Shown here piece by piece: positions 218 through 35,031 of a DNA stretch of 64,000 nt. Origin of the DNA: an uncultured Lachnospiraceae bacterium. GTDB lineage: Bacteria; Bacillota; Clostridia; Lachnospirales; Lachnospiraceae. The stretch lies in the NCBI GenBank assembly GCA_947382625.1, contig CANDAG010000011.1, positions 40,204-104,203 on the forward strand, given 5' to 3'. Numbering within the stretch: position 1 is the first letter of the stretch; each line of letters starts with the position of its first letter. The notes under the pieces were generated by a model, which did no database searches, was not told the origin of the DNA, and saw only the letters and a program-made list of their open reading frames with translations. Position numbers and translations under genes: made by a program.

Positions 218-1654
218 ATGATTTGTTATAAATGCGGATGCCGTTTGTCTGAACATGATTTTTGTACGGGCTGCGGTGCGGATGTAGCCCTTTACAAAAG
301 GATTATGTTTGCATCCAACCGTTTGTATAATGACGGGCTTGAGAAGGCTTCGGTGAGAGATCTATCCGGAGCGATCATCAGCTTGCGGCAGAGTTTAAAA
401 TTCAACAAAAATAATATTGATGCCCGGAATCTTCTGGGTCTTGTTTATTTCGAAATGGGGGAGGCAGTTGCCGCCCTGAAGGAATGGGTGATCAGTGATA
501 ACATCCGGCCCAAGAAAAATATCGCGGCGGATTACATTGAAATGATCCAGGCAAATCAGGCCAGGCTCAGCAGCATCAATGAAACCATCAAAAAATACAA
601 CCAGGCTTTGATGTACTGTCATCAGGACAGTGCGGATCTGGCCATCATACAGCTGAAAAAGGTACTCTCCAACAGTCCCAAATATGTGCGGGCTCATCAG
701 TTGCTTGCCCTTCTTTATATCAATTCCGAGGAATGGGAGAAGGCACAGCGGGAGCTTGTAAGATGCAGCCATGTGGACACCAACAATACCACGACCATGC
801 GGTTCCAGAAGGAAGTGGAGCGTATGCTGATGCCGGAGGCGGCTCCGGGTAAGGGGCCTGTTAAGAAGAAAGGGTCCGGCAATGCAGTGCGCTACCAGAG
901 CGGTAATGAGATCATCATCCAGCCCGCGAACGTAAAGGAGCCCAAAGGGATCAGCTCTTTGCTGAATCTGGGGATCGGAGTGATCATCGGTGTGGCCATC
1001 GCCTGCTTTTTGATCCTGCCGGGGCAGATCCGGAACGTCAAGGCAGATACGAGTGAGGAGCTGCGAAAGGTAAGCGAGAACTTAGATGCCAAGACGGCCA
1101 CCATTGACGAGTTAGGACAGAAGGTACAAAAGCTTCAGGATGAGAACGCCCAGCTTTCGGAGGAGATCGCTTCCTATCAGGTTAATGACGACACCCTGAA
1201 GGCTACCGATAATCTGATGATGGCGGTGAGCGCATACCTTGCAAATCCTGATGATCTGGAAGCGGTAGCGGCCCATCTGGAGGCTTTGGATGAAGAGTTG
1301 GCCAGGGACGAGGAGGACAGCAGCAAGTACAAAACAGAATCCTACATGGCTTTGTATAACGGTTTTGTGGATACGGTAAGGCCCAGGCTTGTGGAGTATT
1401 ACTATAATACGGGGTACGAAAATTACCGGTCACGGAACTTTGAGGATGCCATACCGGATCTGGCCAGGGTTTACCAGTATGACGAGACCAACGTAAACGC
1501 GTTGTTCTTCCTGGGGATCAGCTACTACAGGACAGAAGATTATGATAATGCCAAAGAAACCTTTGCAAAGGTGATCGATAATTTCCCGGGCACCAACAGT
1601 GCCAGCCAGTCGAAGACTTATCTGGCGGAGATCAATAATACGGAAGCACGCTGA
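218..1654 (+). CDS. Zinc-ribbon, TPR-repeat membrane protein
   Basis: A 478-residue protein. The N-terminus carries a zinc-ribbon-like set of cysteines (CYKCG near residue 3, CTGCG near residue 16). TPR-like helical repeats follow (about 30-110 and 125-190), then one membrane segment (about 245-268, centred on LGIGVIIGVAIACFLIL), a coiled coil (about 275-320), and a second pair of TPR-like repeats at the C-terminus (about 385-470). The likely role is a membrane-anchored scaffold; the partner is unknown. The start has AAGGAG six bases upstream. The gene lies upstream of the sigma-F cassette but a terminator separates them, so a sporulation role is only a guess. Its last codons GCA CGC TGA lie inside a palindromic repeat that supplies the stop codon. 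Confidence 0.75.
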   Translation: MICYKCGCRLSEHDFCTGCGADVALYKRIMFASNRLYNDGLEKASVRDLSGAIISLRQSLKFNKNNIDARNLLGLVYFEMGEAVAALKEWVISDNIRPKKNIAADYIEMIQANQARLSSINETIKKYNQALMYCHQDSADLAIIQLKKVLSNSPKYVRAHQLLALLYINSEEWEKAQRELVRCSHVDTNNTTTMRFQKEVERMLMPEAAPGKGPVKKKGSGNAVRYQSGNEIIIQPANVKEPKGISSLLNLGIGVIIGVAIACFLILPGQIRNVKADTSEELRKVSENLDAKTATIDELGQKVQKLQDENAQLSEEIASYQVNDDTLKATDNLMMAVSAYLANPDDLEAVAAHLEALDEELARDEEDSSKYKTESYMALYNGFVDTVRPRLVEYYYNTGYENYRSRNFEDAIPDLARVYQYDETNVNALFFLGISYYRTEDYDNAKETFAKVIDNFPGTNSASQSKTYLAEINNTEAR

Positions 1655-1755
1655 TGCGTGCGCAGGTCATAAGGAATCCTCCCGTCTGCGACGGGTCCCT
1701 CCTTATGACAAGAAATACGGAAGCACGCTGATGCGTGTATTGCTCATAAGGAATA
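1637..1755. repeat. Family A palindromic element at the 3' end of the TPR gene (one full copy plus a truncated copy)
   Basis: The 12-mer AATACGGAAGCA occurs at 1637-1648 and 1714-1725, 77 bp apart. Each copy is followed by CGCTGATGCGTG, giving hairpin 1 (GCACGC-TGAT-GCGTGC), whose loop contains the TGA stop of the TPR gene. Hairpin 2 has outer arms GTCATAAGGA (1666-1675) and TCCTTATGAC (1700-1709) and inner arms CCCGTC (1681-1686) and GACGGG (1690-1695). After the second 12-mer the element begins again but breaks off after ATAAGGAAT. The same architecture occurs near 10.1 kb and 34.9 kb. Confidence 0.85.
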
Positions 1756-1763
1756 ATAAAACG

Positions 1764-1796
1764 AAAGAGAACAGACGATGAGTTTGTTCTTTTTTT
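1764..1796 (+). terminator. Intrinsic terminator between the TPR gene and spoIIAA
   Basis: AAAGAGAACA (1764-1773) pairs with TGTTCTTTTT (1785-1794, one G-T pair) around an 11-base loop, and the 3' arm runs into a tract of seven T. It separates the TPR gene from spoIIAA. Confidence 0.65.
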
Positions 1797-1818
1797 CACG
1801 AATCATTAGGGGGATTTT

Positions 1819-2127
1819 ATGGAAGAGAATTTTAAGGTGATCGATAATTACCTGATGGTCCGGATGCCGGAGGAGGTGGATCATCACAAGTCGGGTTTTA
1901 TCAGCAAAACGGCCGATGATTATATTATGAAGGACGGAGTGGGGAACGTGGTTTTTGATTTCGAGGATACTCGCTTCATGGACAGTTCCGGGATCGGCAT
2001 TATTATCGGGAGGTACAAAAAAATCTCCTACTTTGGCGGAAAGGTGTTTGCCATCAATGCAGATACGCGGATCAAGAGGACTTTGATGATATGCGGCCTG
2101 CACAAGGTCATCGAGATTATGGAATAA
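1819..2127 (+). CDS. spoIIAA: Anti-sigma F factor antagonist (STAS domain)
   Basis: A 102-residue single STAS domain, the usual length for SpoIIAA. In its unphosphorylated form this protein pulls SpoIIAB off sigma F and so releases sigma F in the forespore. The phosphorylation site is in DSSGIG at residues 55-60; Ser56 or Ser57 corresponds to Ser58 of Bacillus subtilis SpoIIAA. It is the first gene of the three-gene spoIIA order AA-AB-sigF, which confirms the identity. The ribosome site AGGGGG lies before the ATG. In other spore formers this operon is controlled by sigma H and Spo0A; I found no convincing sigma-H promoter in the short gap after the terminator. Confidence 0.93.
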
Positions 2128-2141
2128 GAGGATGGGAAGAT

Positions 2142-2672
2142 ATGGAAACAGAACGGAAATTTAAAAAGGACATGGAAGATATTACAGACATGCAGAATGA
2201 GCTGCAGATGAGCTTTGATGCCATATCCGAAAACGAGGCCTTCGCCAGACTGGCAGTTGCAGCCTTTGTGATGCCCCTTGATCCCACGATGGAGGAGATT
2301 TCGGATATCAAAACAGCAGTTTCGGAGGCGGTCACCAATGCGGTCATTCATGGCTATGATGAGGAATACATGCAGGAAAGGGACAGGCAGGGCTGCTCCG
2401 GAGAAAAAAGGGAAAAGGTTCATATGTACTGCCGGATCGAAGGGGACATGCTTTACATAGAGATCAGGGATATGGGAAAAGGTATAGAGGATATTCCCAA
2501 AGCCATGGAACCTCTTTATACCACAAAGCCGGAGCTGGAGAGATCAGGAATGGGATTTGCTTTTATGGAGGCCTTTATGGATCATTTGGAGGTGATCTCC
2601 GAGCCGGGCTGCGGTACAGTGGTCCGGATGGAAAAAAGGCTGCAGGCGGCGGAGGAAGAGAATGATCTATGA
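2142..2672 (+). CDS. spoIIAB: Anti-sigma F factor, serine kinase
   Basis: A GHKL-fold kinase that binds sigma F and phosphorylates SpoIIAA. The N-box is at [12 protein letters not shown] and the G boxes are DMGKGIED and [22 protein letters not shown] is the typical SpoIIAB N-terminal motif. The start at 2142 is chosen because AAGAGGA sits nine bases upstream. This gives 176 residues, against about 146 in B. subtilis. The extra length is an N-terminal extension of roughly 20 residues and a charged insert after the N-box (about residues 77-95). A start at 2190 would give the conventional N-terminus but has a weaker ribosome site. The stop overlaps the sigF start (ATGA). Confidence 0.92.
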
Positions 2673-3397
2673 CAGAAAATACAGTACTGATTAGGCGGGC
2701 ACAGGCAGGAGAAAAAAAGGCGCGTGAGGTACTGATAGAACAAAACTTAGGGCTGGTACGCCATATTGTAAAGCGTTTTCTGGGACGGGGCTACGAAGCG
2801 GAGGATCTGTTTCAGATCGGCGTGATCGGTCTGATCAAATCCATTGATAAGTTTGATACCGGTTATGAGGTGAAGTTTTCCACCTACGCAGTGCCGCTCA
2901 TTACAGGAGAGATTAAAAGATTTATCCGGGATGACGGTATGGTAAAGGTGTCACGGACCCTGAAGGAAAACAACATAAAGGTGAAATATGCCAGGGAGAG
3001 ACTTGGCAGCAGGCAGAGCCGGGAGCCGACTCTTGAGGAGATCGCCGGTGAGGCGGCGCTTACAGTTGAAGAAGTTGTGCTTGCCATGGAGGCCAATGTT
3101 CAGGTAGAATCAATCTATAAGTCGGTCTACCAGAATGACGGGAATGAAATATTCATGGTAGACCAGCTGGCAGACGAGAAACAAAACGAGCAGGAAACGG
3201 TTTTGAACCACATGGTCTTAAACCAGCTGATCGATGACCTGCCGCAAAAGGAGCAAAAGCTGATTCTGCTCAGGTATTATCAGGACAAAACCCAGACAGA
3301 GGTTGCAAAGGTTTTGGGGATCAGCCAGGTGCAGGTCAGCAGACTGGAAAAGAAGATCCTGCTGAACATGCGGCAGAAAATGACAGAGACCGAATAA
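2669..3397 (+). CDS. sigF: Forespore RNA polymerase sigma factor sigma F
   Basis: A 242-residue sigma-70 family factor of the SigB/SigF/SigG group. Region 2 (about 20-90, with [18 protein letters not shown] and [20 protein letters not shown]), region 3 (about 100-160) and region 4 with its helix-turn-helix (about 190-236, [22 protein letters not shown]) are all present. It directs the first forespore-specific transcription after asymmetric division and is held inactive by the product of the preceding gene. The start overlaps the spoIIAB stop by four bases, so the two are translationally coupled. A small mobile element begins about 20 bp after the stop. Confidence 0.95.
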
Positions 3398-3415
3398 AGA
3401 AAAACGTAACTGTGA

Positions 3416-3592
3416 AGGTATTGGTAACTATTCAGCCAGGACTTTGCACTTGCTGCAAAGTCCGTGAAAAAAAACGTTCCTGCGGAACGTGTAGATTAAG
3501 CCAAGTGTGAATCTGCCCCTTCGCCGCAGGCGATTTAAAATGGGCAGATTCATGTAACTATGAAGCCGAAGGCTGAATAGTTACAGGTATTG
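3416..3592. mobile_element. MITE of 161 bp with 14-bp inverted ends and 8-bp target duplication (family D)
   Basis: GTAACTATTCAGCC (3424-3437) and its exact complement GGCTGAATAGTTAC (3571-3584) bound the element. Immediately outside each end is the same 8-mer AGGTATTG (3416-3423 and 3585-3592), as expected for a target-site duplication. The interior has no ORF and is nested hairpins: GGACTTTGCA/TGCAAAGTCC, ACGTTCC/GGAACGT and AATCTGCCC/GGGCAGATT. It is non-autonomous and no matching transposase is in the window. Related fragments are at 57081-57123 and, more distantly, 63805-63945. Confidence 0.85.
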
Positions 3593-3634
3593 AACAGTTA
3601 TACAAAAACAAAAAGAAAGAGAATGGGAATACCA

Positions 3635-6600
3635 ATGAAAAACTGGAAAAAACATAAAAAGTGGATGGCAGGCATGCTGTGTGTGATCCTGCTCCTTGGT
3701 ATGGGAGAGGGCGCGCTGGCATCCCAGACCAAAGAAGAAAACCAGGCCTGGGAGGATTCTGCAGAGGACGGCATCGATGAGGAAATGAATGAGACATCGG
3801 ATGATGTGACTGCAGAGGAAGGCTCCGGCGATGGAACGGAAGGATCCGACAAAGATTCTGAAGAGACTCCTTCGGATGCTTCGGAAACCGGCGCGGAAGA
3901 CGGAACAGGGGAGGAAGCTCCGGATACATCCGGAGATCTGCCAAAAGACGGATCAGACGATCTACCGGAGGATATATCGGAAGATGCGGAAATCCGGGAA
4001 TATATAAAGGAGGCACAGAGCGCCCTTTCAGAGATTGAAAAGAAAGAGTCTCTCATGGCTCTTGTGTATCTGTGTGAAAGCTATGCCCTGAAAAAATCTC
4101 CGGATCCGGAAGGAGAGAATATTGTAAAATTTCCCTCAGGAACTACAGTTTTTATCAAAGGAGTAGAGGCCGATGAGGATTTTAATCTTTGGTATCAGGT
4201 GACAGGGGAGCTGAGCGGTAAGGCTTACACCGGTTACATACAGCGAGAATATCTGGCTTATTCCAATGAGCTGTTTCTTGCCTGGGAGGATACTTATTTC
4301 CCCAGGATTGCCATGTTTGCTTCAGGGAGCGGAGTGTATCCTGATGTAGAGCAGTTTCCTGCCTCTTACAGGGATAAGCTGATGCGGTTAAAGCAGGCTC
4401 ATCCTAATTGGATCTTTGTAAAGCAGAATACGAACTTAGACTGGCAGAAGGTAGTCAGCGCCGAAAATTATAAGGACAGGAATCTGATCAGCAGCAGTCA
4501 GGGAGCCGCTTATCGGGGAGACTATTATGGACAGGGATGGTATTATGCTTCGGAGGGAGCGGTAAAGTATTACTTAGATCCCAGAAACTTTCTGGATGAT
4601 ACCAGAGTATTCCAGTTTGAACAGCTGACCTATAATTCATCCTATCATTCTAAGGCGGCAGTACAGAATATCTTAAGCAAAACCTTCATGAAGGGACAAT
4701 TGCCGAAATCAGACATGACCTATGCGGATGCCTTCTTTAAGATCGGGGTTTCCTTAAAGGTGAGTCCCTTCCATTTAGCATGCCGTGTCTACCAGGAGCA
4801 GGGACAGGGGACGTCTCCGCTGATTTCCGGAAATTATGACGTGGTGCCTGAATATAAGGGCTATTATAATTACTTCAATATTGGCGCTTCCGGAAAAACG
4901 GATAAGCAGGTGATAGAATCAGGGCTGGCAAGAGCCCGCAAGGAGGGCTGGGATACGCCCTACGCCTCCCTGAAAGGCGGAGCGGGGATTCTGTCTGTAA
5001 ATTATATCCTGCGCGGACAGGATACCCTTTATCTCCAGAAATTTGATGTGGATGCAAGCGACGGCACATTGTATACCCATCAGTACATGCAGAATATCAT
5101 GGCGCCCTATACGGAATCCTCTATGGTAAAACGGGCATATATAGAAACCGGTGCGTTGGACAACCCCTTTGTGTTTAAAATCCCGGTTTATAATAATATG
5201 CCGCAGACGGCCTGCCCGGTGCCGACAGCAACGCCGACTCCAAAGCCCACGGCCACGCCGACACCCACAGCAACACCAAAGCCTACAGCTACACCGACAC
5301 CAGCAGCAACGCCTACGCCAAAGCCTACGGCTACGCCTACAACCACAGCCACGCCTACACCAACAGCAAAGCCTACGGCCACACCGATCCCGACAGCCAC
5401 ACAGAAGCCTACAGAGGCTCCTGCGGCCACGGCTACACCGACATCCACAGCGACGCTAAAGCCTACGACCGGGCCGACAGTTACTGCAGCACCGACGCCA
5501 ATGTCCACCGCGTCTCCAGCAGCAACACCCGGGGCAAGTGTCACCCCCGCCGCCACAGGGGCACCGACGGCAACAGCTACGGCAGAACCGACACTGAAAC
5601 CCACGGCCGCAGCGACTGCGATGCCTGCCGATGCACCGACCTTAAGGCCCACGGCGAAACCCACAGCAATATCAAGCCCTGCGGCTACAGCCACACCGGT
5701 GTCAACCACTGCACCAACCTTAAAGCCGACAGCCACACCGACAGTCACGGCGACAGCGACCCCGACGGCAACGCCGACACCCACGGCGACAGCGACCCCG
5801 ACGGCAACGCCGACACCCACGGCGACAGTGACCCCAATGGCAACGCCGACACCAACAGCTACCCCTACAGCGACTCCGACAGCAACACCGACGCCCACGG
5901 CCACAGCGACCCCGGCGGTCACAGCATCGCCCACGGTCACGGCCGCATCGACGGCAAAGCCGGGTACGGCCCCTGCGTCAACCTCCGCTGCATCGTCAAC
6001 GGGGCACAGGGAACCACAAGCACCGGCAGCAACGCAGGATCCCGGGAATCCTCCCGAAGCATCTGCTTTGCCGGCACCTACAGCCACATCGGTTCCCGCC
6101 GTTTCTCCGGAAGGGACAGAAGGGCATAGGGATGGTAATTCTGCGAATATAAATGGAAATACCAATTCGGCAGGCGTTACCGTGACAGCGGCTACGCCCA
6201 GGCCTTATACGGAATCAGGGGAAAAGAAGACGGTTTCAATGGATATGAGCAAAACAGGCATGATCTATGCGCAGACACTTCAGCAGATCAGGGAGCAGGG
6301 AATGGAGGTGGAATTAAAGGTCAGCGATAAGGCAAGCTGGTTTATCGATGGCAGTGCCATAGAAGATGACGGATTGGGTGACATCAATCTGGGAGTAACC
6401 TTTGGAGAGAGCCGGATCCCTAAGGAAAAGCTGGAAATATTAACAGAGAATGAGAAATACATAGAGATGTCCCTGGCTCACGAGGGAGAGTTTGGTTTTA
6501 CCATCGTGCTTTCTGTGAAGCTGGAGGATATCCAGCCGGGTCAGTATGCAAATCTCTTCTATTATAATGAGGAGACAGGGGACTTTGAGTTTATGTGCGC

Positions 6601-6883
6601 CTCTGTAACAGGCAGTGCAGGCACCGCAGACTTTGAATTCTCACATGCCTCGGACTATGTGATCATTATCAGTGAGGAAACAAAGGAAACACTGATCCGG
6701 GAGAAGGAATACGCCCTGGAAGAGGTAAAGGCCCGGGAGGCAGAGGCAATAGCGCAGGCAAAGGAAGAGCTTCCTGCCAAAGAACCCGGGAAGGCTGCCG
6801 CCATCATAGCTTTGATCCTCCTTGGCAGTGCCGCCATCGGGATTGCAGTTTATCTGGTAATGAAAAGGAAGGATGAAAGGTAA
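3635..6883 (+). CDS. Secreted cell-wall glucosaminidase with SH3-like domain, Pro/Thr/Ala stalk and C-terminal membrane anchor
   Basis: About 1,082 residues. Order: signal peptide (residues 1-30), acidic Glu/Asp/Ser linker (about 30-115), SH3-like domain (about 135-200), and an endo-beta-N-acetylglucosaminidase domain (about 225-520) with the likely catalytic Glu in [11 protein letters not shown] low-complexity Pro/Thr/Ala stalk of roughly 260 residues follows, then a folded C-terminal domain (about 855-1010), a short coiled coil and a membrane helix with a basic tail (KRKDER). It probably cleaves glycan strands of peptidoglycan while held at the membrane by the C-terminal anchor. Starts at 3590 (TTG) and 3623 are also in frame; 3635 is preferred because it gives a compact signal peptide, but its ribosome site is weak. 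Confidence 0.8.
5219..5990 (+). repeat. Low-complexity Pro/Thr/Ala coding repeat
   Basis: This stretch encodes almost only Pro, Thr and Ala in PTATPT-like units, with Lys or Ser now and then. Between about 5,755 and 5,850 the DNA is nearly perfectly repeated with a period of about 36 bp. Because the repeat is GC-rich and regular, the opposite strand also stays open for over 300 codons; that antisense frame is an artefact of composition. The protein segment is a likely rigid wall-spanning stalk and a candidate for length variation by replication slippage. Confidence 0.85.
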
Positions 6884-6891
6884 GGACAAGA

Positions 6892-7284
6892 ATGGTTCAG
6901 GAAAAAGTGCTTCTGTTTAATTTCAAAGAGGAATCCCAGTTAAAGGCGGTCAGGACAACCTTGTTTCTCATGCAGATTCCGGAACGCATTGTGCAGAGGG
7001 AAGAATATGGGAAGCCGCTGAAGGGGCTTTTGAAGGAAGACGGAAGGTCTGATGGAAAGGCCGGCCTTATGTGCCGGGAGTTGGACGGGCAGATGCTGGT
7101 TTTTGCAGGATTGGGAGGAGAGAGGCTTGAGAGCCTTCTCTCTCTCCTCCGGTCCAATCCGGCGTGCGGAAGAATCCCTTATAAGGCGGTGCTTACGGAA
7201 ATGAATCAGGACTGGAACGCCTATGTTTTGCTGGAAGAGCTGAAAAGAGAGCATAAAGCCATGTGTGAAGGAAGCCAGGGGTAA
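6892..7284 (+). CDS. DUF3783 domain protein
   Basis: A 130-residue soluble protein beginning eight bases after the glucosaminidase gene, so probably in the same transcript. The C-terminal half (LVFAGLGGERLESLLSLLR, then IPYKAVLTEMNQDW and LLEELKREH) matches the pattern of the DUF3783 family of clostridia: a conserved IPLKAVLT-type strand followed by a tryptophan and an LxEELKxEH helix. No biochemical function is established for this family. No signal peptide or membrane segment is visible. Confidence 0.7.
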   Translation: MVQEKVLLFNFKEESQLKAVRTTLFLMQIPERIVQREEYGKPLKGLLKEDGRSDGKAGLMCRELDGQMLVFAGLGGERLESLLSLLRSNPACGRIPYKAVLTEMNQDWNAYVLLEELKREHKAMCEGSQG

Positions 7285-7385
7285 AAGTCTGGCCCGGATC
7301 TGGGGGGTGAGCTGTTCCCAGATTCATATGAGAAGCGGAAGATGAAGCATTGAAATAATCCGTGTTCACAAAAGGAGAGAAAATT

Positions 7386-8048: not shown

Positions 8049-8193
8049 AAAATGGGTGATGGGATATGGAAAATAATACAGGACGATGTGAAAAGAGAAA
8101 ATAATATAGTAAATCCGCACAAAGCATGTTACAATGAGGGCAAAGCAGACATCTTGCGGAACGCGATGGTGTTGTTTTTGAAAGGAGAAAACT

Positions 8194-8742: not shown

Positions 8743-8775
8743 ATAAAATATCTTCAGGTAAAATTCTTATATGGA

Positions 8776-8812
8776 AAATGGACAGTCCGTAAAATGAACT
8801 GTCCATTTTTTT
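8776..8812 (+). terminator. Intrinsic terminator after the Uma2 gene
   Basis: AAATGGACAGT (8776-8786) and ACTGTCCATTT (8798-8808) form a perfect 11-bp stem with an 11-base loop; the 3' arm runs into a tract of seven T. Confidence 0.85.
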
Positions 8813-8814
8813 AA

Positions 8815-8951
8815 TTCAATAAGCTGTCTCGCGAAGCGTAGCAGCGTTTGATAGGCTCTCTCCTGGAGCACGTTAGTGTTTGCTGCAATAAGTGATAGCG
8901 TCTGCTACACTAAGCGATAGCGTTTGGACACTAAGCGATAGCGTTTGCTGC
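8815..8951. repeat. Degenerate array of family B hairpins
   Basis: The first unit (8815-8852) is a standard 38-bp family B hairpin with the tip CGCGAAGCG. It is followed by a diverged unit (about 8853-8882) and three shorter units of the form AAGYGATAGCGTYTG up to 8951. The array ends directly at the stop codon of the minus-strand gene that starts this side at 8952. Confidence 0.7.
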
Positions 8952-10022: not shown

Positions 10023-10049
10023 AATATAAGAGCCTCCTTATGGTATGAT

Positions 10050-10150
10050 TGGAAGCGCACTGATGTGCGCGTAGGTCGTAAGGAATCCTCCCGCCTGTGG
10101 CGGGGCCCTCCTTGCGACATGTAATAGGAAGCGCACTGATGTGCGCGCAT
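10050..10150. repeat. Family A palindromic element, intergenic copy
   Basis: GGAAGCGCACTGATGTGCGC occurs at 10051-10070 and again at 10127-10146, 76 bp apart. Hairpin 1 is GCGCAC-TGAT-GTGCGC; compare GCACGC-TGAT-GCGTGC at the other loci, where the changed pair is compensated. Hairpin 2 has outer arms GTCGTAAGGA (10075-10084) and TCCTTGCGAC (10109-10118) and inner arms CCCGCC (10090-10095) and GGCGGG (10099-10104). It sits between two divergent genes. Confidence 0.8.
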
Positions 10151-15486: not shown

Positions 15487-15505
15487 TTCAGTGGAAACAA
15501 TTTTA

Positions 15506-15543
15506 ATCAATAAGCCGACTCGCGAAGCGTGGCGGCGTTTGAT
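15506..15543. repeat. Family B 38-bp hairpin
   Basis: The unit starts ATCAATAAGCCG and ends GCGTTTGAT, with the tip CGCGAAGCG. It lies 20 bp after the lipoprotein gene. Confidence 0.8.
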
Positions 15544-15559: not shown

Positions 15560-15590
15560 GAAGGAAAATGTGAAATTCGCATTTTCCTTC
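15560..15590 (+). terminator. Hairpin between the lipoprotein and permease genes
   Basis: GAAGGAAAATG (15560-15570) and CATTTTCCTTC (15580-15590) form a perfect 11-bp stem around nine bases. No long T tract follows, so it may lower read-through or protect the upstream mRNA, as is common after binding-protein genes, and not fully terminate. It lies between two family B repeats. Confidence 0.4.
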
Positions 15591-15593
15591 TTC

Positions 15594-15631
15594 ATCAATA
15601 AGCTGATTCGAGAAGCGTGACAGTGTTTGAT
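15594..15631. repeat. Family B 38-bp hairpin
   Basis: The unit starts ATCAATAAGCTG, has the variant tip TTCGAGAAGCG and ends CAGTGTTTGAT. It ends 24 bp before the permease start. Confidence 0.8.
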
Positions 15632-22380: not shown

Positions 22381-22409
22381 AAGGGCGCCGCATGCGGCGC
22401 CCTTTTTTT
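22381..22409 (+). terminator. Intrinsic terminator after the chemotaxis receptor
   Basis: AAGGGCGCCGC (22381-22391) pairs with GCGGCGCCCTT (22394-22404), a GC-rich 11-bp stem that runs into a tract of seven T. It separates two convergent genes and may act in both directions. Confidence 0.92.
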
Positions 22410-22411
22410 GA

Positions 22412-22449
22412 ATCAATAAGCTGGCTCGCGAAGCGTGACAGTGTTTGAT
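22412..22449. repeat. Family B 38-bp hairpin
   Basis: The best-formed copy: ends ATCAA and TTGAT, arms CTG and CAG, tip CTCGCGAAGCG. It lies between the terminator and the 3' end of the convergent alpha-glucosidase gene. Confidence 0.85.
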
Positions 22450-25232: not shown

Positions 25233-25261
25233 TTGACAACCACATGGGAAAAAGATACACT
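25233..25261 (+). promoter_or_regulatory. Sigma-A-type promoter for the flavin reductase gene
   Basis: TTGACA (25233-25238), a 17-base spacer, then TACACT (25256-25261, four of six). It lies 45 bp upstream of the flavin reductase start. Confidence 0.65.
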
Positions 25262-25306
25262 GAAATAGTAATAATTCTTATTTTGGCAGAGAGAAGGGAT
25301 ACTAAA

Positions 25307-25810: not shown

Positions 25811-25883
25811 TCGCGGGCGCACTATCTGTTTTGAGGAAAAAGATGGATTATCGAAACGCAATGAGGAAAGGAAGTATAAAGCT

Positions 25884-26792: not shown

Positions 26793-26810
26793 TACAGGAA
26801 AATTTAAGAT

Positions 26811-27488: not shown

Positions 27489-27504
27489 GTGCAGGGAGAG
27501 GATA

Positions 27505-28386
27505 ATGGGTAATTTTTTCAGAATGATCAATGCAAGGTGGGGCAGGGAGGAGATGACTTCCTGGGGATCCCTGCGAAAAACTGCATATTTGCTTTTACCC
27601 CTTTTATTCTACTTTGTAGTGCATGATGCGGCGGAGGTTCTTTTGTGGGCCGGACTTAATGGGTTGATGACAAAGGGCAGCGCATCTTTGACAGAATTTT
27701 TGGCAGGTAATGCCTATACGGTAAATGGCCTGATTAATGGATTGTCTATTCTGGCAGGTGTGGCGGCAATCTGGCAGGCGGTATATGGGGAGATCAGCGG
27801 GGGAGAGACCAAGGCGTCACCTGCTGCGAAGAGCAGTGAGAGGGTGGTGACCGGATACATTGCCATTGGGGTGTTGGCTTTTTTATCGGCGTTGGCCCTG
27901 AATCTTATTTTTTCCTTATCGGGGCTTACCGGCAGCTCTGAATCCTTCGGTCAGACTGCCAGGGCGCAGTATGGGGTGAACTTTGCCATAGGCCTTTTAT
28001 TGTACGGAATTTTATCTCCTGCAGCGGAGGAAGCCGTATTTCGGGGGCTGATCTATAACCGGATGAAAAGGTGCTTTGGATATTTCATTGCTCTTCCGGT
28101 GTCCTCGCTGTTTTTTGGCTGTTATCACGGAAACTGGGTACAGGCTCTCTACGGAACGCTGTTGGGGCTTTTGATCGCCTGGACTTACGAGCAATACGGA
28201 AGCTTTGCTGCGCCGGTGCTGTTTCACAGCGTATCTAACGTAAGCATTTATGCCATGACTTATTATAACAGTCTTGGAAACCTGAGCAGGTCGGTGAGCG
28301 TGGGCGTTGCGGCGGTTTCTCTGGCGGGGGCGGCGGTGTGCTTTTGGTATATAAAGAAAAGAGTCTGCCCTGCGAAAAATCAATAG
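27505..28386 (+). CDS. CPBP-family intramembrane metalloprotease
   Basis: A 293-residue membrane protein with about eight hydrophobic helices. The three CPBP (Abi) active-site motifs are present: EEAVFRG (near 173), FGCYHGN (near 205) and HSVSNV (near 243). The Glu pair and the two His residues should hold a zinc ion within the membrane. These proteases process prenylated or small membrane proteins; some confer immunity to self-made bacteriocins, but no bacteriocin gene is visible here. GGGAGAGG precedes the ATG. Confidence 0.88.
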   Translation: MGNFFRMINARWGREEMTSWGSLRKTAYLLLPLLFYFVVHDAAEVLLWAGLNGLMTKGSASLTEFLAGNAYTVNGLINGLSILAGVAAIWQAVYGEISGGETKASPAAKSSERVVTGYIAIGVLAFLSALALNLIFSLSGLTGSSESFGQTARAQYGVNFAIGLLLYGILSPAAEEAVFRGLIYNRMKRCFGYFIALPVSSLFFGCYHGNWVQALYGTLLGLLIAWTYEQYGSFAAPVLFHSVSNVSIYAMTYYNSLGNLSRSVSVGVAAVSLAGAAVCFWYIKKRVCPAKNQ

Positions 28387-28439
28387 CCTCTCAAATTAAA
28401 GGTGTAAGGGAGCAATAGTTATATGAAAGGATAAATATC

Positions 28440-28853
28440 GTGAAGAATAGATTAACGCAAGTGTTAATTGGGTGCATCATTCTTTTTGCGGCAGTGCTGT
28501 TGCTGCCGGAATATTCAGGCGTTGTCTTTTGGCTGAGAAAGGCGTTTTTATTTGCTCTCCTATTGTTTATTATTGCCTTATTTGTAAGATTGAATCAGAT
28601 AAAAAATATTGAATATGAGGTAAGAATTACTGAGATCAGATCGACAGACAGAATGAATCCTTCTCAGTATATATCCAAGGGAGGAGCCCCGTGCGCTGGT
28701 TCGGATGGGAGAGTTCAGGTTACTTTTCAGCTGATTGATGGTACACAGAGAATGCTTTCTCTTTCTGCCAGGCAGTCCGTTGGTTTGGCCAGTGGCATGA
28801 GGGGAACTCTGGTATATCGTGATGCGGTTTTTATTTCATTTAAGCCGGAGTGA
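28440..28853 (+). CDS. Small membrane protein with DUF2500-like domain
   Basis: A 137-residue protein starting with GTG, with AAAGGAT upstream. Two membrane helices (about 7-24 and 30-50) are followed by a soluble domain of about 80 residues. The pattern VQVTFQLIDGTQRMLSLSARQSVGL ... GMRGTLVYRDAVFISF matches my recollection of the DUF2500 family, in which a YVTFEL-type strand and a GDKGTLxYQGxRFLxF ending are conserved. No function is known for that family. Confidence 0.6.
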   Translation: MKNRLTQVLIGCIILFAAVLLLPEYSGVVFWLRKAFLFALLLFIIALFVRLNQIKNIEYEVRITEIRSTDRMNPSQYISKGGAPCAGSDGRVQVTFQLIDGTQRMLSLSARQSVGLASGMRGTLVYRDAVFISFKPE

Positions 28854-28983
28854 ATTTATTTTCGATTATGTCCTCGTATATGCGAGAAGAGATAACTGTT
28901 GATCAATTAACTTCACAAGGAGCCGGATGCAGAAAAGCAACAAGTTCGGTGCTGGTAATACTGGAGAGATATATACCTGTATA

Positions 28984-29679
28984 TTAATTTGACGCATTCA
29001 TTGAAGGCGTTCGAATTCCGTCTATGTGCTCAAACAAATCATCTTTTATAGGTGAACGCATTGGATCGAGAATAAAATCAATTCCCTCGCGACGCGCCTG
29101 TTTGGCAGCAGGAACAAAATCACTGTCTCCTGATATTAATATGATCTGATTAACCTGACTTTTGAAAACTAAAGATGAAATGTCAACACCTATACGCATA
29201 TCAACACCCTTTTGCTCTAAGTTTAATTCCAGATCATTGATTGTTATATCACTGACGTTAATGTCACCACGGAGAAGTTTTTTGGTGGGCTCATGTTTGA
29301 GAGAATAGTGAACCTGAGTATCGCTGATACGTCCCATACGGAGAGCAAATTTCCGATGATGTTTTAATTCATTTAAAAATTCATTCATCCATGAATATTC
29401 TGCTGTGCGTTCAAGGGAAACAGTTTTTTGGGTAACCGGGTTATAAACATTTTTTGCAATAGGTGGGCAATCGTAATAAAAAACCCGATATAGATAACGG
29501 TTTTCGTAATTATCATGTAGATGTCGGTAGCAATAGTTGTTAAGTTCATCAGCGCGCTCGGTGGGAGTTTTATTTCCCCAAAGGGCTTTTGCCCGTTTGC
29601 GGTAAAATCCACCATCTACCAGTATTGCCGTTCTGACAGAATGTTTTTCAAAATTTTTTCTTTTGTTTTCTCTACTCAT
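28984..29679 (-). CDS. NYN-domain protein (PIN-like nuclease)
   Basis: A 231-residue protein. The NYN/LabA fold is seen from AILVDGGFYRKRA (near 20, metal-site Asp) through VDMRIGVDISSLV (near 160) to ILISGDSDFVPAAKQARREG (near 180), which carries the conserved Asp pair. Such proteins cleave RNA or bind it. The start at 29679 is chosen because GGAG lies just upstream; the ATG at 29703 has no ribosome site. It lies next to a tRNA gene, on the same strand and about 210 bp downstream of it. Confidence 0.85.
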   Translation of the reverse strand: MSRENKRKNFEKHSVRTAILVDGGFYRKRAKALWGNKTPTERADELNNYCYRHLHDNYENRYLYRVFYYDCPPIAKNVYNPVTQKTVSLERTAEYSWMNEFLNELKHHRKFALRMGRISDTQVHYSLKHEPTKKLLRGDINVSDITINDLELNLEQKGVDMRIGVDISSLVFKSQVNQIILISGDSDFVPAAKQARREGIDFILDPMRSPIKDDLFEHIDGIRTPSMNASN

Positions 29680-29812
29680 ATTGTCTCCATAAAAATACCC
29701 CAAGCTTTGTCAACTTCCCTTATAGTGGGAGGACTACCGCTAGGGGTATGTTCATACAACATAACTTTGTGTTACCCTCTTATATTATGCCCTTTACGAT
29801 AAAAAATCAACA

Positions 29813-29852
29813 CTTTTTCTTTAAATTATGACTTTAAAATTTAAAGAAAAAG
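29813..29852. repeat. AT-rich perfect inverted repeat
   Basis: CTTTTTCTTTAAATT (29813-29827) and its exact complement (29838-29852) flank ten bases. It lies between tRNA-Ala and the NYN gene and may serve as a terminator for the tRNA transcript on the minus strand, where the stem ends in a T-rich run. Confidence 0.55.
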
Positions 29853-29888
29853 CCACAACAGATTAAATTTGTGACCTTAATAAAAAAA

Positions 29889-29961
29889 TGGAGCATACGG
29901 GACTTGAACCCGTGACCTCCACACTGCCAGTGTGGCGCGCTCCCAACTGCGCTAATGCCCC
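29889..29961 (-). tRNA. tRNA-Ala (anticodon GGC)
   Basis: Read on the minus strand it gives a complete cloverleaf: acceptor stem GGGGCAT/ATGCTCC, a D arm AGCGCAGTTGGGAGCGC, anticodon stem CCACA/TGTGG with loop CTGGCAG (anticodon GGC, reading GCC and GCU), a variable loop, T arm CACGGG TTCAAGT CCCGT, and discriminator A. The CCA end is not encoded. Confidence 0.96.
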
Positions 29962-30105
29962 ATAAGAAGAGTATATCATAAATTTCACAAAAAACAACAA
30001 AAAAATAATTGACAGAAATTTTATATTAAATAAAAGCAAAATCAGACTATAATAATTTTGAATAAGAATAGTTGAATAATCAGATAATTTCTTAAATATT
30101 CGTTA

Positions 30106-30134
30106 TTTACAACTGGCGAAAACGGGTGTATAGT
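30106..30134 (+). promoter_or_regulatory. Sigma-A-type promoter upstream of gltB
   Basis: TTTACA (30106-30111), a 17-base spacer, then TATAGT (30129-30134, five of six). The expected start of RNA is near 30141, directly before a strong hairpin. A second TATAAT at 30048-30053 has no good -35 partner. Confidence 0.65.
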
Positions 30135-30142
30135 ATAGCTTG

Positions 30143-30189
30143 CAAGTCGCAAAGGAGCGCACAAAAGGGCTCCTTTGCGACTTGTTTTT
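30143..30189 (+). terminator. Strong hairpin with T tract at the very start of the gltB leader
   Basis: CAAGTCGCAAAGGAGC (30143-30158) and GCTCCTTTGCGACTTG (30169-30184) form a perfect 16-bp stem around ten bases, followed by TTTTT. It has the form of an intrinsic terminator, yet begins within a few bases of the predicted RNA start. It may be an attenuator, a 5' stabiliser, or the terminator of a transcript of about 49 nt. Confidence 0.7.
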
Positions 30190-30193
30190 GTTG

Positions 30194-30270
30194 ACATAAG
30201 GATGGCTTGCGAAGCCTGTCATCCGTTGTTTAACATAAGAATGGCTCGCGAAGCGCGACATTCGTTGTTT
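30194..30270. repeat. Two tandem family C palindromes in the gltB leader
   Basis: Copies begin at 30194 and 30233 (period 39) with ACATAAG and end near CGTTGTTT. Copy 1 has stem GGATG/CATCC and tip GGCTTGCGAAGCC; copy 2 has GAATG/CATTC and tip GCTCGCGAAGC. The changed base is compensated in the opposite arm. A third partial start, GCATAAGGA, merges into the gltB ribosome site AAGGAGGAAGG. Confidence 0.8.
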
Positions 30271-30287
30271 GCATAAGGAGGAAGGAT

Positions 30288-33200
30288 ATGTTTGATGCAA
30301 AAAACACTCATCCACAGGCACCCTTATACCGTCAGGAATTTGAGCATGATAATTGCGGGATAGGCGCATGTGTGAATATTAAAGGGGTAAAGAGCAGGGG
30401 GACGGTGGAAAATGCACTGAAGATCGTGGAGAACCTGGAGCACCGCGCCGGCAAGGACGCAGAGGGAAAGACCGGTGACGGCGTAGGGATCTTAACCCAG
30501 GTTCCTCATAGGTTTTTTAAAAAGGTGACAGCGCCTCTCGGGATTTCCATCGGAGAGGAGCGGGAGTACGGCGTTGGTATGTTCTTTTTTCCTCAGGAGG
30601 AGCTTCGGAAAAATCAGGCCAAGAAGATGTTTGAGATCATTGTGGAGAAGGAAGGTCTGACCTTTCTAGGCTGGAGAGAGGTTCCCACGGATCCCTCCGT
30701 GCTTGGGCATAAAGCGGTGGAGTGTATGCCCCATATTATGCAGGCCTTTATCAGGAAGCCTGCAGGAGTGGAAAAGGGGGTTGCCTTCGACCGGCTTTTG
30801 TATGTGGTAAGGAGAGTATTTGAGCAGTCCTCGGATAATACCTATGTAGTGTCTCTGTCCAGTAGGACGATCGTATATAAGGGGATGTTCCTGGTAGGGC
30901 AGCTCCGTACCTTTTTTACAGATCTGCAGGATAAGGATTTTGAATCGGCTATTGCCATGGTGCATTCCCGGTTTTCTACCAACACCAATCCCAGCTGGGA
31001 GCGGGCTCATCCCAATCGCTTCATTGTACATAACGGGGAGATCAATACAATCCGGGGGAATGCGGATAAGATGCTTGCCCGGGAAGAAAATATGGAATCG
31101 GAGCACTTAAAAGGGCTTTTGCATAAGGTGCTTCCGGTAGTAAATACGGCAGGATCCGATTCGGCTATGCTGGACAATACCCTGGAATTTCTGGTGATGA
31201 GCGGTATGGAGCTTCCTCTTGCAGTGATGATCACGATTCCGGAGCCCTGGGCCAACAATCAGACCATGTCCCAGCACAAGAGAGACTTTTACCAATATTA
31301 TGCGACTATGATGGAGCCATGGGACGGCCCGGCATCCATTCTGTTCTGCGACGGGGATGTGATGGGAGCGGTTCTTGACAGGAACGGCCTGAGGCCTTCC
31401 CGGTATATGATCACCGATGATGATCAGCTGATCCTTTCCTCCGAGGTAGGCGTGCTGGATATCGATCCCGGCAAGATTTTGGTAAAGGAGCGGCTCCGCC
31501 CCGGCAAAATGCTGCTGGTGGATACGGTAAAGGGCAAGGTAACCGATGACGATGAGCTGAAGGAGACCTATGCATCCAGGCAGCCCTACGGGGAATGGCT
31601 GGACAGAAATCTGGTACATCTCCATGATCTTAAGATTCCCAATGAAAGGGTGCCGGAGTTTACTCCGGAGGAAAGGCAGCGCATGCAGAAGGCCTTCGGT
31701 TATTCCTATGAGGAGCTGAAAAACAGCATTCTTCCCATGGCCAGAACCGGCGGGGAGGCCATTGCGGCCATGGGAGTGGATACACCTCTTCCGGTGCTGA
31801 GCAAGACCCATCATCCCCTGTTTCATTATTTTAAGCAGTTATTTGCCCAGGTGACCAATCCGCCTATCGATGCGATCCGGGAGGAGATCGTGACTTCCAC
31901 CACGATTTATGTGGGGACGGACGGGAATATCCTGGAAGAAATCCCCAAAAACTGCAACATGCTCCGGGTAAATAATCCGATCCTCACCAACACGGATCTG
32001 ATGAAGATCAAGAGCATGAAAAAAGAGGGCTTTAAGGTAGAGGTGATCCCCATCACCTATTACAAAAACACCAGGCTGGAGAGGGCCATTGACAGGCTGT
32101 TTGTGGAGGTGGACAGAGCTTATCGGGACGGCGCCAATATTATGATACTATCCGACCGTGGGGTGGATGAAAATCATGTGGCGATCCCTTCCCTGCTGGC
32201 AATTTCGGCTCTGAACAGACATCTGGTGGTGACCAGGAAAAAGACCAGCGTGGCGCTGATCATAGAATCCGGGGAGCCCAGAGAGGTTCACCATTTTGCG
32301 ACTCTTCTGGGGTATGGAGCCTGTGCCATCAATCCCTATCTGGCACAGGAGTCCATCAAGGAGCTGATCGATGATCATATATTAGATAAAGATTATTATG
32401 CTGCAGTGGAGGACTATAATAATGCCATTCTTCACGGGATCGTAAAGATTGCTTCCAAGATGGGGATCAGTACCATCCAGTCCTATGAGGGCTCTCAGAT
32501 TTTTGAAGCCATTGGGATTGATGAGGAAGTGATCAATAAATATTTCCCTCATACGGTCTGCCGTGTGGGCGGCATTACTTTGAAAGATATTGAAAAGCAG
32601 GTGGATGAACTGCATTCACAGGCCTTTGATCCCTTAGGGCTTGCCAATGACCTGACCCTGGACAGCTTAGGACATCACAAAATGCGCAGCGGTGCGGATG
32701 AGCATCTTTATAATCCCGCAACCATTCATCTTTTGCAGGAATCCACCAGACGGGGAGATTATCAGCTGTTTAAAGAATACACCGCTCTGGTAAACGATGA
32801 AAATTCGGTAAAGAATCTCCGGGGATTGATGGACTTTAATTTCCCGAAGAAGGGCGTTGCCATTGAAGAGGTGGAGAGCGTGGATTCTATCGTGACCCGG
32901 TTTAAGACAGGAGCCATGTCCTATGGTTCTATTTCCAAGGAGGCTCATGAGACCATGGCCATTGCCATGAACCGTCTTCACGGTCGTTCCAACTCCGGAG
33001 AAGGAGGGGAGGAGCTGGATCGTCTTACAGTAGGGCCGGACGGCGTCAACAGATGCTCTGCCATTAAGCAGGTGGCATCGGGGCGGTTTGGCGTTACCAG
33101 CAGATATCTGGTCAGCGCAGATGAGATCCAGATCAAGATGGCCCAGGGGGCAAAGCCCGGGGAAGGCGGTCATCTGCCCGGTGGAAAGGTGTACCCATGG

Positions 33201-34838
33201 ATTGCCAAAACAAGACATTCTACACCGGGGGTAGGACTCATTTCCCCTCCGCCCCATCATGATATTTATTCGATTGAAGATCTGGCGGAACTGATCTACG
33301 ATCTGAAAAATGCCAACAAGCATGCCCGGATCAGTGTGAAGCTGGTTTCCGAGGCCGGGGTGGGGACAGTGGCTGCCGGAGTTGCCAAGGCCGGTGCACA
33401 GGTGATTCTGGTTTCCGGCTATGACGGCGGTACGGGAGCGGCTCCCCGAAGCTCTATCCACAACGCGGGGCTTCCCTGGGAGCTGGGACTGGCGGAAACT
33501 CATCAGACCCTGATCATGAACGGGCTTAGAAATAAGGTAAGGATCGAAACCGATGGTAAGCTTATGAGCGGCCGGGATGTGGCCATTGCAGCGATTCTGG
33601 GTGCAGAGGAGTTTGGCTTTGCAACGGCTCCGCTGGTAACCATGGGTTGTGTCATGATGCGTGTCTGCAATCTGGACACCTGTCCGGTAGGAGTCGCCAC
33701 ACAGAACCCGGAGCTTCGCAAAAACTTCAGAGGCAAACCGGAATATGTCATGAATTTTATGTGGTTTATCGCTGAGGAACTGCGGGAATATATGGCCCGA
33801 CTTGGGGTGCGCAGTGTGGATGAGCTGGTGGGACACACAGAGCTCCTTAAGGTAAGGGAGGATCTGACCGAGAGCCAGAGCCAGATCGATCTGAGCCTGA
33901 TCCTTTCCAATCCTTATGCAGGCGGAAAGGAAAAAGTAATCTTTGATCCGAAGCAGGTGTATGACTTTAAGCTGGAAAATACAGCAGATGAAAAGGTGCT
34001 GTTGAGACAGCTTAATAAATCCATAGACGGAAAGAACAAACGCAGTATCGAGGTGGATGTGAAAAATACGGACAGGGCTTTTGGCACTATCCTTGGCTCG
34101 GAGATTACCAGAAGACTTGGGGATGATCTGGAGGAGGATACCTACCGGGTGCTCTGCAACGGAGCCGGTGGACAGAGCTTTGGAGCCTTTATCCCTAAGG
34201 GACTTACCTTAGAGCTGGTAGGAGACAGCAACGACTACTTCGGAAAAGGTCTTTCCGGCGGGAAGCTGATCGTTTATCCTCCGAGAGGAAGTCGCTTTAA
34301 GGCGGAGGACAATATTATCATAGGAAATGTGGCACTTTACGGAGCCACCAGCGGCAAGGCATTTATCAACGGTGTGGCAGGAGAGAGATTCTGCGTGCGC
34401 AACTCCGGCGTCATTGCGGTGGTGGAAGGCGTAGGTGACCATGGTTGCGAGTACATGACCGGAGGCCGGGTGGTAGTGTTGGGACGTACCGGAAAGAACT
34501 TTGCGGCCGGTATGAGCGGCGGCATTGCCTACGTGCTGGATGAGGACAACGATCTGTATATCCGCCTGAATAAAGAAATGGTTTCTTCCTATGAAGTGAC
34601 CTCCAAGTATGATGTGATGGAACTCAAGGAAATGATCAAGGAGCATGTGGCGCTGACCAATTCCGAGAAGGGCAAGCTGGTGCTGGATCATTTCAAGGAA
34701 TATCTGCCGAAGTTTAAGAAGATCATCCCTTATGATTATGAGAAGATGCTTACCAGCATTGTGCAGATGGAAGAAAAGGGACTCAGCGCCGAGCAGGCGC
34801 AGATTGAAGCTTTTTATGCGATTAAGGTAGCACGCTGA
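30288..34838 (+). CDS. gltB: Glutamate synthase, large subunit
   Basis: A 1,516-residue subunit, full length for bacterial GltB. The class II amidotransferase domain starts with Cys23 (EHDNCGIG), which should become the N-terminus after removal of the leader. The central and FMN-binding synthase domains follow (about 440-1200), with the 3Fe-4S cysteines in MGCVMMRVCNLDTCPVGV near 1122-1139, then the Gly-rich beta-helix GXGXG domain at the C-terminus. With GltD it makes two glutamates from glutamine and 2-oxoglutarate. AAGGAGG precedes the ATG. The last codons (GTA GCA CGC TGA) come from an inserted family A element, which separates gltB from gltD by 224 bp. Confidence 0.97.
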   Translation: MFDAKNTHPQAPLYRQEFEHDNCGIGACVNIKGVKSRGTVENALKIVENLEHRAGKDAEGKTGDGVGILTQVPHRFFKKVTAPLGISIGEEREYGVGMFFFPQEELRKNQAKKMFEIIVEKEGLTFLGWREVPTDPSVLGHKAVECMPHIMQAFIRKPAGVEKGVAFDRLLYVVRRVFEQSSDNTYVVSLSSRTIVYKGMFLVGQLRTFFTDLQDKDFESAIAMVHSRFSTNTNPSWERAHPNRFIVHNGEINTIRGNADKMLAREENMESEHLKGLLHKVLPVVNTAGSDSAMLDNTLEFLVMSGMELPLAVMITIPEPWANNQTMSQHKRDFYQYYATMMEPWDGPASILFCDGDVMGAVLDRNGLRPSRYMITDDDQLILSSEVGVLDIDPGKILVKERLRPGKMLLVDTVKGKVTDDDELKETYASRQPYGEWLDRNLVHLHDLKIPNERVPEFTPEERQRMQKAFGYSYEELKNSILPMARTGGEAIAAMGVDTPLPVLSKTHHPLFHYFKQLFAQVTNPPIDAIREEIVTSTTIYVGTDGNILEEIPKNCNMLRVNNPILTNTDLMKIKSMKKEGFKVEVIPITYYKNTRLERAIDRLFVEVDRAYRDGANIMILSDRGVDENHVAIPSLLAISALNRHLVVTRKKTSVALIIESGEPREVHHFATLLGYGACAINPYLAQESIKELIDDHILDKDYYAAVEDYNNAILHGIVKIASKMGISTIQSYEGSQIFEAIGIDEEVINKYFPHTVCRVGGITLKDIEKQVDELHSQAFDPLGLANDLTLDSLGHHKMRSGADEHLYNPATIHLLQESTRRGDYQLFKEYTALVNDENSVKNLRGLMDFNFPKKGVAIEEVESVDSIVTRFKTGAMSYGSISKEAHETMAIAMNRLHGRSNSGEGGEELDRLTVGPDGVNRCSAIKQVASGRFGVTSRYLVSADEIQIKMAQGAKPGEGGHLPGGKVYPWIAKTRHSTPGVGLISPPPHHDIYSIEDLAELIYDLKNANKHARISVKLVSEAGVGTVAAGVAKAGAQVILVSGYDGGTGAAPRSSIHNAGLPWELGLAETHQTLIMNGLRNKVRIETDGKLMSGRDVAIAAILGAEEFGFATAPLVTMGCVMMRVCNLDTCPVGVATQNPELRKNFRGKPEYVMNFMWFIAEELREYMARLGVRSVDELVGHTELLKVREDLTESQSQIDLSLILSNPYAGGKEKVIFDPKQVYDFKLENTADEKVLLRQLNKSIDGKNKRSIEVDVKNTDRAFGTILGSEITRRLGDDLEEDTYRVLCNGAGGQSFGAFIPKGLTLELVGDSNDYFGKGLSGGKLIVYPPRGSRFKAEDNIIIGNVALYGATSGKAFINGVAGERFCVRNSGVIAVVEGVGDHGCEYMTGGRVVVLGRTGKNFAAGMSGGIAYVLDEDNDLYIRLNKEMVSSYEVTSKYDVMELKEMIKEHVALTNSEKGKLVLDHFKEYLPKFKKIIPYDYEKMLTSIVQMEEKGLSAEQAQIEAFYAIKVAR

Positions 34839-35031
34839 TGCGTGCGTAGGTCGTAAGGAATCCTCCCATCTTCGATGGGCCCCTCCTTGCGACAATAATT
34901 AAGGTAGCACGCTGATGCGTGTATTGGTCATAAGGAATCCACCACCAATGGTGGTCCTCCTTATGACATTGGTCGTAAGGAATCCTCCCATCTTCGATGG
35001 GTCCCTCCTTGCGACAATAATTAAGGTAGCA
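34821..35031. repeat. Family A palindromic elements, tandem insertion between gltB and gltD
   Basis: The 12-mer ATTAAGGTAGCA occurs three times: 34821-34832 (inside the gltB coding end), 34898-34909 and 35020-35031. Between copies one and two is one element; between two and three are one full element and a third hairpin. Hairpin 2 arms are GTCGTAAGGA/TCCTTGCGAC (34850, 34884), GTCATAAGGA/TCCTTATGAC (34927, 34958) and GTCGTAAGGA/TCCTTGCGAC (34972, 35006). Inner arms are CCCATC/GATGGG, CCACCA/TGGTGG and CCCATC/GATGGG. The 12-mer behaves as a target-site duplication. Confidence 0.88.

Follow-up and report, generated by a model that had tools for sequence, protein, structure and literature searches.

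A two-hairpin DNA repeat of about 70 letters dispersed in the chromosomes of some Lachnospiraceae gut bacteria

The window, i.e., the whole stretch of 64,000 nucleotides analysed here from an uncultured Lachnospiraceae bacterium, carries three clusters of a two-hairpin DNA repeat of about 70 letters, which is dispersed in the chromosomes of some Lachnospiraceae gut bacteria. The full unit is 70-75 nt long and consists of a first hairpin, hp1 (GAAG-CACGC-TGAT-GCGTG-C in one instance), a brief linking sequence (GCA or GTA, among others) and a second hairpin, hp2, with the order GTCRTAAGGA, internal loop, variable inner stem, second internal loop and TCCTTRYGAC. The window holds five hp2 and six hp1, all on the + strand, two of the hp1 being without an intact hp2; the preliminary description of this DNA had drawn the folding correctly and had counted four complete hairpins where there are five hp2. 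The core GGTCRTAAGGAATCC occurs five times exactly, and six matches were obtained when up to two mismatches were allowed, against 0.30 on average and never more than 2 in 100 shuffles.

The first cluster overlaps the stop codon of an ORF for a TPR protein (218-1654). Its hp1 (1646-1661), read directly as GCACGC-TGAT-GCGTGC with GGAA before it, falls within a match of the covariance model described below (G000:C11:41845-41914), and its hp2 (1666-1709) has the outer arms GTCATAAGGA/TCCTTATGAC, an internal loop and the inner stem CCCGTC/GACGGG. Positions 1710-1754 are occupied by the target repeat AAGAAATACGG, comparable to CAATAATACGG at 1633-1643, and by a broken second unit made of an hp1 (1723-1738) and a degraded hp2 start. 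In the second cluster, a -10-like target ATGGTATGATT (10040-10050) lies to the left of hp1 GCGCAC-TGAT-GTGCGC (10055-10070) and of an hp2 (10075-10118) with the outer arms GTCGTAAGGA/TCCTTGCGAC, which include one T.G pair, and the inner arms CCCGCC/GGCGGG; positions 10119-10146 then contain ATGTAATA, again similar to the target, and an hp1 (10131-10146) that lacks an intact hp2. The third cluster is an array between genes for a gltB-like glutamate synthase and a gltD-like protein. It begins with the left copy of the target ATTAAGGTAGCAC (34821-34833), the first 12 nt of which were the last gltB codons before the insertion, and continues with unit 1, composed of hp1 (34830-34845) and an hp2 with the inner arms CCCATC/GATGGG (34850-34893). 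The interval 34898-34922 contains the target once more (ATTAAGG, 34898-34904) and the hp1 of unit 2 (34907-34922), the variant hp2 of unit 2 (34927-34967) has the inner stem CCACCA/TGGTGG, and a third hp2 with the inner arms CCCATC/GATGGG (34972-35015) follows it directly; the right copy of ATTAAGGTAGCAC lies outside the array (35020-35032). Such hp2 doublets are present at other loci of the same genome. The TGA of the hp1 loop serves as the stop codon of both the TPR ORF and the gltB-like ORF, which ends at 34838. We also noted that the 3' arm of hp2 (e.g., 1698-1704) includes CCTCCTT, the anti-Shine-Dalgarno heptamer, and that the opposite strand reads AAGGAGG.

All inner, outer and hairpin 1 arms named in the preliminary description were thus read in the sequence, and its three copies are real, with corrected boundaries and layout. 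Those given as 1637-1755 and 10050-10150 each combine a complete unit with a broken one behind it, of which hp1 but no intact hp2 is left, the copy at 34821-35031 has the layout hp1-hp2 / hp1-hp2 / hp2, and the flanks included in these extents are partly repeated target and not element. A broken unit closes two of the three clusters, so that debris and intact element occur together.

The window contains other repeats as well. A second dispersed palindrome of about 38 nt, TCAATAAGCTGNCTCGCGAAGCGTGRCRGYGTTTGA, occurs at 8803-8852, 15494-15543, 15582-15631, 22400-22449, 30203-30267, 58324-58373 and 58648-58697; a palindrome of this type at another locus (L159, 2270-2317) matches several genomes of the genus as well as an array with a 37-bp period in G002:C167. 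Short tandem repeats were seen at 8885-8947, where a ACACTAAGCGATAGCGTTTG-like unit occurs three times, and at 56253-56344, with three units of 27 bp (TCATCCGTTGCAAGCATAAGGATGTYT); the ORF 3590-6883 includes, at 5203-5973, a coding repeat that is degenerate and built in multiples of 6 bp.

The four two-hairpin units of the window and the single third hp2 are predicted to fold very stably as RNA (z -5.3 to -6.8), with none of 200 shuffles equally stable for any of them. Folding as DNA gave z values of -5.1 to -7.05 for four + strands and three - strands, with the outer stem interrupted on the - strand in two copies. In an alignment of 133 copies (119 distinct) to the structure model, both-sided changes were found at 18 of the 22 pairs and in 294 cells, values reached in none of 500 shuffles, and 94.9% of cells pair, a share that drops to 30-45% when one arm is slid; the covariation figures lean upwards because this alignment was fitted to the model. 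A MAFFT alignment of 26 copies, chosen from 45 by excluding type-2, short-hp1 and some redundant copies, had 97.0% of cells paired and both-sided changes at 8 of the 22 pairs (22/500 shuffles as high) and in 49 cells (0/500). The shape of hp1 is constant across 25 different 5' hexamers. The repeat is real, structured, dispersed and strongly covarying, which supports this part of the preliminary description.

Stem covariation by itself is no proof of RNA function, and the counts of G-U versus A-C tell the two readings apart. In RNA folding, G-U is tolerated far better than A-C. The stems of the 133 copies contained 39 G-T and 36 A-C when occurrences were counted by pair and by source group (37 groups, some of which may still share a genome), and 85 G-T and 67 A-C as raw cells. 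Before the duplicate locus L066 = L126 was merged, the values were 40 and 36 in 38 groups, and leaving out the most variable outer pair from this 38-group count gave 25 and 27. By comparison, 36 tRNAs of the fetched loci gave a GT:AC ratio of 24:1 at fixed positions in their acceptor stems (Fisher p 3e-5), in a sample that is small and whose detection favours well-paired stems. The G-T pair that had been taken as a sign of RNA folding is not supported as such, since with G-T about as frequent as A-C the stem complementarity is held about equally on both DNA strands. The case is strong but not final that the pattern fits an inverted repeat used as DNA, or arm-to-arm correction, and not a functional RNA. 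The conserved feature resembles the symmetry of inverted repeats at the DNA level that REP-type mobile elements show.

The exact core was found at 29 places in the genome of the window. The preliminary description had suggested a search with a covariance model, and the model R1, built from 26 copies, gave 58 matches at E<=1 in this genome, 41 of them at E<=1e-3. The exact core is present in 5 of the 37 genomes of the genus, that of the window included, and blastn with the window locus detected the element also in G006 and G028. R1 matched at E<=1e-3 in 36 of 397 genomes of the family sample, again counting the window's own, and in 3 of 398 genomes of the phylum sample, all three from the same family, Lachnospiraceae; both counts are minima, as at most 12 candidates were scored per genome under strict filters. 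The full hp2 pattern was met in 37 stretches in a scan of 84,980 species, with titles naming Lachnospiraceae, Agathobacter, Dorea, Sporofaciens and Clostridium sp. Rfam 15 had no match to the element at or above the gathering score in the window or, at E<=1, in seven loci; what matched there comprised tRNAs and a single hit below threshold that lay outside the element. Plasmids and phages yielded nothing in a distant blastn search with one 176-base query, viral contigs did not contain the exact 19-base core, and no paper describing the element was seen in literature searches that covered mostly non-subscription journals. At six loci (L062, L066, L068, L077, L078 and L093), hp2 is embedded in a larger element, which at L068 has the terminal repeats CTAGTGTAGTGTCTGCATTATAT / ATATAATGCAGACACTACACTAG. 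Copies at L079, L081, L088, L096 and L133, from other genera, adjoin tRNA- or tmRNA-like sequence as judged by eye.

Comparison with relatives identified sites without the element. In the gltB-gltD interval it was absent from all 14 relatives fetched out of 31 with a match, where the uninterrupted sequence of the genus, e.g., in G018, is TATGCAATTAAGGCAGCAAAGTAG; in the window, ATTAAGGTAGCAC flanks the array on both sides (34821 and 35020). It was likewise absent between the TPR gene and spoIIAA in all 18 relatives fetched out of 36 with a match, and the original right flank of that site is not conserved. R1 at E<=0.01 had no match in these 32 relative loci and six more. In G036, which lacks the element at the promoter of a GH2-family gene, the sequence there is ATATGTTAAAATAA, and in the genome of the window the element at this promoter is flanked left and right by ATGTTACAATGA. 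The idea that TATAAT is part of the element was rejected for two sites, gltB and the promoter of the GH2 gene, because relatives without the element have the native target there. In G142, a larger palindromic repeat carries an 88-nt insert, consisting of a further small hairpin and hp1-hp2, at three loci (L111, L112 and L113) and lacks it at L109, although the copy at L109 could instead be the product of a precise deletion. The gap between the TPR gene and spoIIAA (1710-1818 in the window; the same gap in L162-L179) also holds palindromic repeats that differ between relatives, for example AATAAGC...GCGAAGCG in L168 and L172 and CGAGCAACGAGCC in L175.

The target was characterised at 37 sites of the genus, 24 of them from the window's genome, with site patterns that miss diverged copies and after sites too near a locus end had been dropped. 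The left flank is an extended -10-like sequence, TRTGNTATAAT in the genus of the window: at 18/37 sites an exact TATAAT precedes the element at a distance of 0-4 nt, compared with 0.3% of random window positions, and TGN precedes the best hexamer at 22/37. A weak test for a -35 box gave at least four of six matches at 14/37 sites and at 7/37 for control spacings. The left and right flanks of one site resemble each other, with a mean longest match of 6.0 versus 4.7 for permuted pairs (0/20,000 permutations); the match is 7-12 nt long at 16 sites and shorter than 7 nt at 21, thus target duplication is not universal. At L100 and L222, the right repeat is closer to the consensus ATATGATATAAT than to its own left flank, which is why recombination between a target-like core of the element and a chromosomal site may be an alternative to target duplication, and part of the right-hand repeat could come along with the element. 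The GAC of hp2 is followed by AT at 20 sites, AA at 15 and AC at 2, and an hp1-like trace after the right-hand target was found at 11/37 with a loose pattern, a few of these being doubtful. The element often adjoins TATAAT, also lies at the 3' ends of genes and, in other genera, occurs away from promoter-like sequence. By crude ORF calling, an ORF on the same strand starts no more than about 110 nt past the array at 16 of the 24 sites in the window's genome, L021 being a doubtful case. TATAAT occurs 41 times in the window, 31 times in genes, five times in a promoter-like setting and five times elsewhere between genes; as it lies mainly inside genes, selection against gene disruption could yield the promoter bias without any special targeting.

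Four PDDEXK_9 genes contain the element in antisense orientation within an open frame, L007 and L097 in the genome of the window, L211 in G036 and L215 in G034. It adds about 25 residues after GFGRYD (TCRKEGPGEAGRIPYDLRAHQRASY in L007). The ORF is complete in L007 only, where it also includes an AAA-ATPase_like domain; in L211 and L215 it is cut by the locus edge, and in L097 the frame opens just 107 residues before the element, so that the gene looks disrupted upstream. A further PDDEXK_9 domain, at L063 in G036, is without the element and has another short repeat nearby. The position common to all four genes suggests that they go back to one old insertion, which would have been kept through gene duplication or transfer.

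The drivers considered were a RAYT, i.e., a Y1 tyrosine transposase, and a reverse transcriptase, and both were rejected as they are missing in many carriers. Y1_Tnp (PF01797, E<=1e-5) was absent from 12 of the 20 genomes with a core or model match and present in the other eight, as well as in two of the five without a match; none was detected in G107, G127 and G297, which carry 10-12 or more matches. RVT_1 at the same threshold was present in 9 of 19 carrier genomes and not found in the other ten, among them the window's own, G107 and G127. These absences speak against the two drivers without excluding them, because draft genomes have gaps and a carrier may lose the enzyme once it has acted. 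We also considered that an autonomous element might lie between copies in opposite orientation and rejected this: ten ORFs around two pairs of opposite copies had no transposase domain, four were without any Pfam match, and the domains found were PIN-like, GH88, PBECR4, NUDIX, methyltransferase and GNAT. One of 13 Y1 loci (L148 in G142), with an interrupted Y1 transposase gene, has downstream of it a partial hp2-like hairpin with different outer arms (2332-2363, - strand, E 0.0015); the other 12 had no match below E 0.2. The position of this hairpin may be due to chance, as such repeats abound in G142.

Among the kinds described so far, the REP/BIME group comes closest, and we regard the element as a new variant of such repeats, not as a member of the group. 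REPs were sorted into GTAG and CGTC families, the former tied to Y1 transposases/RAYTs, and were catalogued predominantly in Proteobacteria, in passages of a survey whose main text contains neither Firmicutes nor Clostridi- (Di Nocera et al. 2013, PMC3733652). With the GTAG REPs and BIMEs as described in these passages, the element shares a short palindrome, a tag at one end, clustering and occasional location within genes. Its own features are two linked hairpins, the conserved hp2 with internal loops, tandem direct arrays and a flanking target repeat at -10-like sites. The exclusion from the group rests on the associated RAYT, for which PF01797 was sought at E<=1e-5 and found lacking in 12 of the 20 genomes with a match. 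The tag gives a mixed picture: among 133 aligned rows, 13 of them without hp1, it is GAAG in 53 and GTAG in 23, its last G is paired whereas the tag of GTAG REPs is unpaired, and GAAG is not canonical. Rickettsia palindromic elements, described in passages of a review (PMC10969869) as small palindromic elements of about 150 bp located in frame within ORFs, are a further likeness, and a host gene left open by the insertion was seen here in the four PDDEXK_9 genes (L097 being disrupted upstream); the present unit is shorter, with just a few copies in genes. Similarly to the bacterial MITEs bcr1, RUP, ERIC and NEMIS, the element is non-coding, dispersed and flanked by a target repeat at many sites, which as a set is significant (0/20,000 permutations), yet is shorter than 7 nt at 21/37 sites. 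Unlike MITEs, it has no terminal inverted repeats: 26 copies gave 7.5 of 18 end matches versus 7.2 when shuffled, with 9.8% of shuffles as high. Single-stranded DNA elements derived from IS200/IS605 have different hairpins near their two ends and a preferred left target, both of which are seen here; they differ from this element in its flanking target repeat at many sites and in the absence of Y1 from 12 of 20 carriers.

We consider it most probable (about 0.7) that the repeat is mobile DNA, namely a small chromosomal element that is non-autonomous, lacks terminal inverted repeats and is of the REP/BIME kind. Its unit would be a GAAG- or GTAG-tagged hp1, a short linker and the strongly conserved hp2, and a putative enzyme acting in trans would most likely recognise the folded DNA as a single strand or cruciform. 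Insertion would take place immediately 3' of a sequence resembling an extended -10 box (TRTGNTATAAT in the genus of the window) and would often leave an imperfect, locus-specific target repeat of up to 12 nt on the other side, after which units may be duplicated in tandem and some may lose hp2. Promoters would be hit on account of their sequence, and an element in a 5' leader probably changes the expression of that gene as a side effect. A bolder and only tentative extension is that the -10 region of sigma-A promoters, once opened, serves the enzyme as its insertion substrate. The repeat would then represent a new class of hairpin mobile element that, on arriving at the transcription start, provides a two-hairpin leader and a second -10 box, and one element family would rewire the 5' ends of dozens of genes.

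The same placement could speak for a cis-acting RNA, in which the hairpins would form the 5' end of transcripts from the adjacent TATAAT and stabilise or regulate mRNAs, the covariation reflecting RNA folding. The same-strand ORF starts at 16 of the 24 own-genome sites (L021 doubtful), the start of the element at TATAAT sites about where transcription should begin, and the very stable RNA fold are consistent with such a role; we nevertheless regard it as unlikely, in view of the un-RNA-like GT:AC ratio of 39:36, the apparently unrelated downstream genes (gltD-like, the STAS/spoIIA region and GH2) and the copies that are antisense in coding sequence, at the 3' ends of genes or, in other genera, off promoter-like sequence. 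Somewhat less probable still is a true GTAG REP mobilised by a RAYT that was later lost from many carriers. To our knowledge, the Y1 mechanism is not expected to leave a flanking target repeat, and this, the paired tag G, the detection of Y1_Tnp in just 8 of the 20 matching genomes and in none of the match-rich G107, G127 and G297, and the lack of a match below E 0.2 at 12 of 13 Y1 loci weigh against it. In its favour are the GAAG (53) or GTAG (23) tag of hp1 in the 133 rows and the clustering of units as in the REPs (in passages of PMC3733652); the hairpin at the one Y1 locus (L148, E 0.0015) lends this explanation a slight gain and our preferred one a slight loss.

Retrotransposition of a small structured RNA by a reverse transcriptase, in the manner of a SINE, would account for a flanking repeat of variable length and for the absence of terminal inverted repeats. 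We find it very improbable, given that RVT_1 was not found (E<=1e-5) in 10 of the 19 carriers, the window's own among them, and that broken copies mostly lack the 3' hairpin and not the 5' one. Even smaller is the chance that the copies are ageing, immobile debris of a larger dead transposon, for which the many broken copies and the failure to find an autonomous partner might argue. Against this, L111, L112 and L113 of G142 are separate loci with the same unit, and some tandem copies, as at L028, are identical, which suggests recent copying; the arms diverge yet the stems stay complementary.

A mobile DNA element of the REP/BIME kind thus remains our preferred reading of this repeat. A Lachnospiraceae family of such elements without a consistent Y1 transposase or reverse transcriptase, with -10-like targets and with open-frame copies in genes, points to a further mobilising enzyme in these abundant gut bacteria.
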